DNA of 64,000 nt from Natronosalvus rutilus (lineage in GTDB: Archaea > Halobacteriota > Halobacteria > Halobacteriales > Natrialbaceae). The stretch is taken from positions 3,639,451 through 3,703,450 of the forward strand of contig NZ_CP100355.1 of assembly GCF_024204665.1 (NCBI RefSeq). The letters run 5' to 3'. Positions 43,598 through 46,271 of the stretch are shown here, piece by piece (the stretch's first letter is position 1; each line of letters starts with the position of its first letter). Below the pieces are notes generated by a model, which did not search any database, was not told the origin of the DNA, and worked only from the letters and a program-made list of their open reading frames with translations. The translations under genes were made by a program, and so were the position numbers.

Positions 43598-45544
43598 CTA
43601 GATCGACGTGATCCGCGTGTACTCTTCGTCCAGGGCGGCCGCATCCTCCGGAAGCAACGCCGTCACGAGCGTCTCCGCGTACTCGCTGAAGTAACCGACG
43701 AGTCGGGCGATCCGATTCGAGTCGATGGCCTCGAGTGAGTCCAACAGCATGAACGGCACCTCGTCGTACACCTCGTGGACCAGGTAGCCAGCCAGCGCGA
43801 ACACGAGCCCCGTCACTTCTCGCTCGCTCTCGCTCAGGTGATCGATCGTGTCCTCGTAGGTCCGCCCGTCGTCGGCCTGGCGGACGATGTGTAACTCGAA
43901 GACCGGACGGTCGACGCGCCGCCGTCCCTCCTTGACCGTCTGTTCGGTCCGTTCGATCCAGATGCGCTCGAGGTTCTCGTACTCGAGGACGTCGAGTACC
44001 GAGGCCATGTGCTCGTTGAACGCCTCGACCGACTCCCGCTCGATGCGATCGATCCGGGTCCGGAGGTCGGTGAGTCGCTCGGATGCTTGCTCTCGCTGTG
44101 CTCGCAGATCGTCGATGCGACCGATCTCGGTCTCGGCTTCCTCGATTTCGTCCTCGACGTCTGCGAGGTCGTCCTCCAGGCGGCCGACCTGGAACTCGAG
44201 TTCGGTCACCTCCTTCTGGTGATCGAGCGTTTCGCTCTCGCTCTCTTCCTCGAGTTCGTCGACCGTCGTCTCCAGGTCGTCGATCCCCTCCTGAAGTTCG
44301 GCCTCGCGCTCGTCGAGCGTCTCGAGCCGGTCGCGGCGTTGCTCGAGTTCGTTCTCCGTGCTCTCGATTCGCTGCGTCAGCGTCTGTCGGCGCTGGTTCG
44401 TCTCCCGTGCCTCCCGCAACGTCGCCTTCCGGTCGTCGATCTGGCGCCGGAGTTCGTTGCGTTCCTGGACGTGCTCCTGCCGGAGGGAGCGAAGGCGCTC
44501 GATCGTCGACTCGATCTGGTCGGTTTCGACCGTGGACCCGCACGTCCAGCAGATGGCCGTGTCGTCCTCGAGCAACTGTTCGGTCACCGCACCACCGTCG
44601 GTCTCGGACTGTTCGCCCTGTAACGCCTGCGTGATCCGCTGGTTCGTCCCCTCGAGCATCTCCTCGTTGAACTGGATGATGCTCTGCAACTGGTTCGTAC
44701 TCGAATCGAGCGTCGACCGCTGGTCGCGAAGCGTCTCGAGTTCCTGCTCGAGCGCGTCGGGATCCGTTTCGAAGCCGTCGGGAAGCTCCTCGAGTTCGTC
44801 CTGCATCTCCTCGAGTTCGGACTCGAGGGTCTCGATGCTCTGTTGTTCGGTCTCGCGCTGGAACTGGACGTCCTCCAGGTCGTTGCGCGCCGACTGGAGT
44901 TCGTCGAGTTTGGCCTCGAGTTCGTCGTCGTCGGTCTCGGATTCGTCCGCGCGCGAGGCCTCGAGGTCCGCGCGTCGTTCCTCGAGTTCGGCCTCCGTTT
45001 CCTCGATCTCCTTTCGGAGCGACTGGCGACGTTCCTCGAGCGAGGGAAGCGACGATTTGAGCGACGTGAGACGGTCGATTTCGTCGTCGAGGCGTCGTTT
45101 GTCCGCTTCGGCCTGGGAGATTTCGGCCTCGATCTCCTCGACGTCGACCGGCCGCATGATGACCTCGCGGAGGTCATCCTGCTGGCTGACGGCCTGGCGC
45201 GCGGTGTTCGACTCGAGCAGGAACGCGAAGAGGTTCGCCAGCGTCGGGTCCTCGAGATAGGGATCGCCCGAACTAACGATCCCCCCTTCTCGCCGTTCGA
45301 AGTGGCGCTCGTACGTTTCGCCCTCGAGCTCGAGCGTCACCGAGCCGTGGTCGGCGTCCGCCTTGAGGGAGACGCGGTCGCTTCCGAGTGCGCCCATGAT
45401 GGATCGAAGGAAGGAGGTTCGGTTCGTCGCGTTTCGCCCCGTGAGGACGTTCACGCCAGTCGTCAGTTCTACCGTCGTCGAGTCGATTCCGCCGATGTTT
45501 TCGACGGACACTCGTGGCTGTCCAGTCGTCTCGCCTGCGCTCAT
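43598..45544 (-). CDS. Archaea-specific SMC/Rad50-related ATPase (Sph3-like)
   Basis: 648 residues. N-terminal half-ATPase: GVNVLTGRNATNRTSFLRSI, at the Walker A place, reads GRNATNRTS instead of GxxxxGKST. Two long coiled-coil arms (about 165-330 and 350-545) surround a central CWTCG, a CxxC that looks like a Rad50 zinc hook. C-terminal half: LSESEREVTGLVFAL (signature) and FMLLDSLEAID (Walker B, with Ser replacing the catalytic Glu). It resembles the haloarchaeal protein encoded next to rdfA (Sph3, from memory). Role: chromosome or membrane organisation linked to cell shape, inferred. ATG 45544 follows the TATA box; a start at 45580 would lie beyond it. Confidence 0.85.
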   Translation of the reverse strand: MSAGETTGQPRVSVENIGGIDSTTVELTTGVNVLTGRNATNRTSFLRSIMGALGSDRVSLKADADHGSVTLELEGETYERHFERREGGIVSSGDPYLEDPTLANLFAFLLESNTARQAVSQQDDLREVIMRPVDVEEIEAEISQAEADKRRLDDEIDRLTSLKSSLPSLEERRQSLRKEIEETEAELEERRADLEASRADESETDDDELEAKLDELQSARNDLEDVQFQRETEQQSIETLESELEEMQDELEELPDGFETDPDALEQELETLRDQRSTLDSSTNQLQSIIQFNEEMLEGTNQRITQALQGEQSETDGGAVTEQLLEDDTAICWTCGSTVETDQIESTIERLRSLRQEHVQERNELRRQIDDRKATLREARETNQRRQTLTQRIESTENELEQRRDRLETLDEREAELQEGIDDLETTVDELEEESESETLDHQKEVTELEFQVGRLEDDLADVEDEIEEAETEIGRIDDLRAQREQASERLTDLRTRIDRIERESVEAFNEHMASVLDVLEYENLERIWIERTEQTVKEGRRRVDRPVFELHIVRQADDGRTYEDTIDHLSESEREVTGLVFALAGYLVHEVYDEVPFMLLDSLEAIDSNRIARLVGYFSEYAETLVTALLPEDAAALDEEYTRITSI

Positions 45545-45546
45545 TG

Positions 45547-45575
45547 GCCCCACTTGGGGCACCACGTATTTATAT
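45547..45575 (-). promoter_or_regulatory. Promoter and inverted repeat of the SMC-like gene
   Basis: On the minus strand, CATATAAATAC (45567-45577) is a strong TATA box 27 nt upstream of ATG 45544. Between it and the start lies GCCCCA-ag-TGGGGC (45547-45560), overlapping the transcription start, a repressor-type operator position. The box shows the gene has its own promoter despite following rdfA. Confidence 0.6.
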
Positions 45576-45674
45576 GCCATCGTCTATCGCCCGCGTCGGG
45601 CGACCAGCGGTCGTTGGCTCTGGGTCCTGGTCACTCGGAGGGGCCGGTCGACCACACGTGACAGAACCGGTCGA

Positions 45675-46271
45675 TCACTCGCGACAGCGACAGCCGCCGC
45701 GCTCGAGGAACGTCGCGACGTCGTACTGCTCCCCGCACTCCTCACAGAGGACGTTCACGTCGACGAGCACCGACACGGAACCGCTCTCGAGGAGGTCCGT
45801 CTCCCGATATCGCTTCACGGTGTCCTCCGTGACCGCGGTCAACCGACTCGAGAGTCGCTGGATGGACGCCGCATCCCGCTCGAGACGGTCCCCCGGACTC
45901 GTCTGGCTCGAGGGCCCTTCGAGTTCCCGGTCGCTCGTCAGGTAGGTGTGAATCGCCTGGTGGGAGACGAACTCCCGGCGAAGCGCGTCGACGTCGATGC
46001 CGGCTCGCTCGAGTTCGCGTTCGGCCTGGGTTCGCATTCCGGCGCTCACGTCGTCGTCGGTGAGAAGTCGGTACGTGTTCTCGACTTCGCCGTCGAGTGG
46101 CGACAGACCGGCGCGAGCCATCCGTTCGCCGAGGAGACGTTCGTTGAATCGCGTGGCCAGCGTGCGAAGGCTCTCCCGTTCGTATCCCTTTCCGAGCCAG
46201 CGCTGCTCGAGTTCGAGTCCGAGGCTTTCGAGGTCGTAGGTCTCGAGCAGACGAGCGACCTTAGTCGGCAT
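45675..46271 (-). CDS. rdfA: Rod-determining factor RdfA
   Basis: 198 residues, soluble. N-terminal ~100 residues are helical (KVARLLETYDLESLGLELEQRW, GYERESLRTLATRFNERLL), and the C-terminus has a zinc-finger-like VLCEECGEQYDV...GGCRCRE (CxxC...CxC). This is the layout of RdfA, described in Haloferax volcanii as needed for rod-shaped cells and encoded beside an SMC-like gene, as here. A purine-rich AGGAGG lies ~8 nt upstream of the ATG. Molecular action unknown. Confidence 0.85.
   Translation of the reverse strand: MPTKVARLLETYDLESLGLELEQRWLGKGYERESLRTLATRFNERLLGERMARAGLSPLDGEVENTYRLLTDDDVSAGMRTQAERELERAGIDVDALRREFVSHQAIHTYLTSDRELEGPSSQTSPGDRLERDAASIQRLSSRLTAVTEDTVKRYRETDLLESGSVSVLVDVNVLCEECGEQYDVATFLERGGCRCRE

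Follow-up and report, generated by a model that had tools for sequence, protein, structure and literature searches.

An RdfA-paired, zinc-hook ASRP of haloarchaea with altered ATPase motifs

In Haloferax, an SMC-like gene (sph3) lies beside rdfA, and the deletion of either gene gives cells that form disks only, with rods and motility abolished (PMC10869688). A different paper states that Sph3 promotes plates, which conflicts with the primary data (PMC13286277). In H. volcanii, deletions of sph2 and sph4 cannot be combined and the loss of sph2 favours rods; gene conversion is impaired in each of the four sph mutants, which suggests a role on DNA (PMC11276520). The Sph proteins of Halobacterium and coalescin (ClsN) of Sulfolobus belong to one family, ASRP, with a head-coil-hook-coil-head layout. 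In those sections of the ASRP paper that were available (PMC9389158), Walker A and Walker B are described as present, the haloarchaeal substitutions considered below are unmentioned, and no consensus in the flanking genes is reported.

The window analysed here is a stretch of 64,000 nucleotides from Natronosalvus rutilus. An intact ASRP reading frame is found on its minus strand (Table 1), with rdfA 130 bp upstream. A reading of this DNA from sequence alone (the sequence-only reading) had linked the family to cell shape in Haloferax, as is published; the likeness to the Haloferax sph3-rdfA pair is one of family and genetics. A close comparison is with Sph1 of Halobacterium salinarum, encoded on pNRC200 with rdfA directly upstream: it is also an ASRP with a hook (CFVC) and an RdfA partner, and it too has lost the Walker B Glu (ILLDG). 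However, Sph1 keeps GKSS in Walker A and belongs to another haloarchaeal clade. The gene pair and its link to rod shape are known; a change of the ATPase core throughout a clade, and an older origin of the pair, are new. No report of the substitutions was found in the literature covered, and since subscription papers and the Halobacterium papers of 1997-2002 were outside its scope, priority is not firm.

Table 1. Features of the ASRP-rdfA locus, in window coordinates.
Feature	Position	Strand	Basis
ASRP/Sph (Sph2-4 type) coding sequence, 648 aa, SMC/Rad50-like	43598..45544	-	NF045487, AF2/Foldseek, tree
Walker B / D-loop MLLDSLEAID, Ser for catalytic Glu	43721..43750	-	alignments
Signature (C-loop) motif LSESEREVTG	43808..43837	-	alignments; LS-x-SE general in ASRPs
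Zinc hook CWTCG, coiled-coil tip	44537..44551	-	89/89 relatives; beta hairpin in model
Altered Walker A GRNATNRTS, Asn-Arg for Gly-Lys	45413..45439	-	ORF translation, alignments
TATA box TATAAATA, the ASRP gene's own, probably leaderless, promoter	45567..45574	-	22 nt before ATG
rdfA, 198 aa: helical domain, long helix, C-terminal zinc ribbon	45675..46271	-	PF21811; AF2 pLDDT 90
RdfA C-terminal zinc ribbon, Cys176/179/194/196	45684..45746	-	alignment, model

Where does the ASRP gene begin? The alternative start at 45580, which gives a 660-aa frame, is upstream of the promoter, and boxes similar to TATAAATA precede the ATG in relatives; the position of the TATA box makes the 648-aa start the right one, as had been proposed. 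Because the gene has its own TATA box, rdfA and ASRP are neighbours but not necessarily one transcript. A second rdfA-ASRP pair is present on another replicon of the same genome, in convergent orientation. Downstream of the window ASRP gene lies a gene for a NurA-domain nuclease (PF09376; 41824-43122, minus strand), which among the loci examined is kept in only one genome of the same genus (L033), a result that speaks against NurA as a conserved partner.

The window protein scores 687.6 bits against the ASRP profile NF045487 (cut-off 300; residues 28-645 over profile positions 1-593), and only 44 bits against the Rad50 profile, whose cut-off is 1087. It is thus a separate family from Rad50 by profile, and it also differs in its motifs from the GxxGxGKST, LSGGE and DE of Rad50. 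In architecture the two are alike: both have a zinc hook, and the AlphaFold2 model, made with 53 aligned relatives (mean pLDDT 84), shows a split head, a coiled coil, a hook hairpin, a second coiled coil and the rest of the head. The top solved match of this model in Foldseek is ATP-gamma-S-bound Rad50 (E 4.7e-15), followed by Smc5/6, MukB, SMC and Lamassu proteins. The hook itself, CWTC, occupies residues 344-347 of the 660-aa frame, between the two coiled coils. The SMC/Rad50 geometry with a hook that had been read from the letters is therefore borne out. A sequence search for solved relatives of ASRP or RdfA found none.

All of the unusual motifs that had been read are in place: GRNATNRTS, CWTCG and LLDSLEAID, with Ser at the position of the catalytic Glu, and a signature reading LSESE instead of LSGGE. 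They are not peculiar to one genome. Walker A reads GxNATNRTS in the clade, as seen in 89 relatives and then in 128 distinct sequences. In these 128, the Gly position is Asn in 126 and His in two, the Lys position is Arg in 126 and Lys in two, and the catalytic Glu of LLDS is Ser in 126, Ala in two and Glu in none. All six Arg codons (CGA, CGG, CGC, CGT, AGA and AGG) are in use at the Walker A Arg; a residue that stays fixed while its codon drifts argues for selection, not error or decay. Conservation as high as that of Walker A is reached by 8 of 632 windows of the protein, and as high as that of the hook by 3 of 636. The altered pocket residues are thus, by these alignments, under strong purifying selection, and to call them degenerate, as the sequence-only reading did, is misleading. 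Sequencing error or a pseudogene is ruled out by motifs that are fixed over the 128 sequences and found on both replicons. Salt adaptation is ruled out as well: Rad50, encoded in the same genome and exposed to the same salty cytoplasm, has the canonical GVNGSGKST, LSGGE and ILDEP, and the N-terminal part of SMC also carries a canonical Walker A (GPNGSGKSN).

Canonical motifs in other RdfA-linked members would have pointed to an error in this sequence. In the window's own clade there are none: NR replaces GK and DS replaces DE throughout. Further out they are present, with GK[TS]S in methanogen-type and Sph1-type proteins and DE in the methanogen-type. The window clade is nevertheless a variant within ASRP, with equivalent motifs in place and a position inside the family by phylogeny.

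When did the motifs change? In a tree of ASRPs built without the motif columns, four proteins (group f9) are sister to all haloarchaeal ASRPs (support 99/95, 100/96). They are here called methanogen-type from their sister place to haloarchaea within the phylum, which is also the place of the Methanosarcina-group ASRPs in PMC9389158. All four have PNA(S/T)GKTS in Walker A and LDELT in Walker B. Haloarchaeal ASRPs, for which the Haloferax and Halobacterium anchor sequences were taken from plasmids other than those of H. volcanii, form two clades. The Sph1-type clade (18 rows, H. salinarum Sph1 included) keeps GKSS and replaces the Glu with G, R, Q or S, except for one row with E (L252), which may be a regain. 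In the other clade (40 rows, window included), Gly has become N, or H once, the Lys position is R or K, and Glu is S or A. ASNK is paired with Ala in Walker B in five of these rows, which lie at two points of the tree, and NR is paired with Ser; the two motifs therefore tend to change together, with one exception in which NK is paired with Ser (L238). Since the methanogen-type sisters keep GK and DE, the change is derived and haloarchaeal. From the aligned sequences, Glu is lost in nearly all haloarchaeal ASRPs, and GK is also lost only in the Sph2-4-type clade. More distant ASRPs have GK, and E, D or N in Walker B, so that Glu has been lost elsewhere too. By contrast, LS-x-SE is ancestral for ASRPs (Sph1-type rows show LSEGE); being general in the family, it lies outside the haloarchaeal change, which rules out LSESE as haloarchaeal decay.

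The pairing with rdfA is borne out. Among 97 genomes of the class, 81 have both families, 15 neither, one RdfA alone and none ASRP alone (Fisher p 1e-16, with kinship ignored; the genomes that lack both belong to about ten genera). The only sampled genome of the class with RdfA-like genes and no ASRP over the limit (G339) has two such genes in tandem, divergent in sequence. In the larger clade, rdfA lies within 301 bp of at least 96 of 115 ASRPs; the 96 adjacent RdfAs are upstream on the same strand in 55 cases, downstream on the same strand in 14, convergent in 19 and divergent in eight. That adjacency survives inversions argues for a working pair. Three of the 19 remaining ASRPs (in genomes G128 and G178) adjoin an RdfA of divergent sequence, and some NR/S ASRPs have no neighbouring rdfA. 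One more of the 19, in a genome of the same genus, is explained by a transposon-like insertion; its TnpB-like frames lie between ASRP and rdfA (L033, 3605-4845). Published counts agree (42 of 54 RdfA, 42 of 50 SMC-like; PMC10869688). ASRP genes occur in 113 plasmid records from haloarchaea, which is notable given the family's link to cell shape.

Has the pair a history beyond haloarchaea? The RdfA tree splits in the same way as the ASRP tree, with all 18 partners of Sph1-type proteins in one clade (100/99) and the methanogen-type proteins in another. A full-length RdfA homologue lies directly downstream of the canonical ASRP in all four methanogen-type loci. Two of these proteins pass the PF21811 cut-off of 27, with 35 and 53 bits, and hhalign gives 98% over 190 columns. 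On this sequence evidence RdfA is not restricted to haloarchaea. Its presence beside canonical ASRPs means that the pair arose before the motifs changed, and rules out RdfA as a simple cause of motif loss. By its sequences, RdfA-ASRP is an old, co-diversifying module.

In the four methanogen-type loci, the RdfA homologue is followed by a winged-helix gene, for which no counterpart was found in the six haloarchaeal genomes searched. The layout of this set recalls SMC-kleisin-KITE operons, a likeness of gene order. Distant ASRPs without RdfA have a conserved AAA+ ATPase gene upstream, with one small gene between, in six loci; three of the six also have in common zinc-ribbon proteins and a ferredoxin-domain protein resembling PAPS reductase, for which the best PADLOC match is BrxP.

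The window RdfA scores 256.8 bits against PF21811 over its whole length (1-195 of 195; gathering cut-off 27), and it is the immediate upstream neighbour with a CxxC/CxC end that had been described, reading C-x2-C-x14-C-x-C. Its model (pLDDT 90) has no match in the PDB with E of 0.001 or below, and so no fold match that would make RdfA kleisin-like. A search for RdfA in phages found none, and a comparison with the zinc-ribbon partner of distant ASRPs, in which only 10 columns aligned, gave no support for kinship. Could zinc join RdfA to the hook, as was suggested? Four candidate ligands of its own (CxxC..CxC or CxxC..CxxC/H) are present in 154 of 170 RdfA sequences, and CxxC is wholly absent in nine. 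The ASRP partners of four RdfAs without an intact CxxC ribbon keep their CxxC hooks. With a full set of ligands in RdfA, and hooks kept where the ribbon is gone, a shared zinc is unlikely; RdfA and the ASRP hook each probably hold their own.

What, then, might the altered pocket do? The account we favour, with moderate confidence, is that the Sph2-4-type ASRP is a zinc-hook dimer with Rad50/SMC-like heads that lack a hydrolysis cycle, and that it is an RdfA-paired, dose-controlled scaffold. Loss of ATP hydrolysis is likely from the motifs. The sequence-only reading had added the possibility that ATP is still bound; absence of binding is as compatible with the sequences, because both of the lost residues, Lys and Gly, take part in binding. 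A possible but rather unlikely alternative, in line with that reading, is a switch that binds without splitting: ATP or another nucleotide would lock the heads as a clamp, and RdfA or turnover would drive release. The first nucleotide-binding domain of CFTR has Ser in place of its catalytic Glu, and the ASRP clade keeps the first Gly, the Asn and the Thr-Ser of the P-loop, the Walker B Asp, the signature Ser and the D-loop Asp. Arg retains the positive charge and can still permit nucleotide binding in Walker A, and Lys is retained in some members (NK). However, the Gly before the Lys, which touches phosphate through its backbone, is replaced by Asn or His in every member of the clade, and the parallel differs in that CFTR retains its Walker A Lys.

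Unusual catalytic residues do serve in some P-loop NTPases, and a pocket that is conserved as in working enzymes, with NR/S and NK/A states that covary, could be that of an unorthodox active ATPase in which binding and catalysis have passed to Arg and other conserved residues. We regard this as improbable: no acidic residue stands beside the Walker B Asp in place of Glu, and the range of residues at the Glu position across haloarchaeal ASRPs (G, R, Q, S or A) is more in keeping with loss than with replacement. Least credible is a relic, with ATPase activity lost by relaxed selection in an accessory plasmid and chromosome family. The family is indeed patchy (it is missing from 16 of the 97 class genomes) and common on plasmids, but near-invariant residues with synonymous change already contradict this reading, and the Haloferax deletion phenotypes also speak against it.

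If the favoured scaffold reading is right, ASRP would be predicted to dimerise through the zinc hook, with its heads in one functional state, either nucleotide-free or holding an unsplit nucleotide, and the altered pocket may be a structural or docking site. RdfA, not an ATP cycle, would then set whether the heads engage each other, DNA or the envelope, and would thereby control assembly of the scaffold or clamp. A pair that acts as a dose-controlled scaffold would fit the rod loss in both single Haloferax deletions; on a cytoskeletal coiled-coil scaffold, the literature covered offers genetics. The need for Sph proteins in gene conversion, and the NR/S ASRPs that have no rdfA beside them, speak against this reading. 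RdfA would not simply be a substitute for ATP, because it also pairs with the canonical methanogen-type ASRPs. More tentatively, and as something short of probable, the whole archaeal class may have made from an ATPase of the SMC/Rad50 type a scaffold that does not hydrolyse ATP and in which RdfA sets the state of the heads, an SMC-like machine that would serve cell shape and recombination with no ATP cycle.

Sph and ASRP proteins are called SMC-related ATPases in the literature covered, a name that should not be given to the Sph2-4 type on the motifs seen here. The RdfA module predates haloarchaea and their switch between rods and disks. Should the haloarchaeal ASRPs be unable to split ATP, they would have to support rod formation and gene conversion as a static scaffold or clamp, a rare case in nature of SMC architecture parted from its motor. 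The methanogen-type pairs, whose motifs are intact, provide a matched natural control, which makes the question directly testable.
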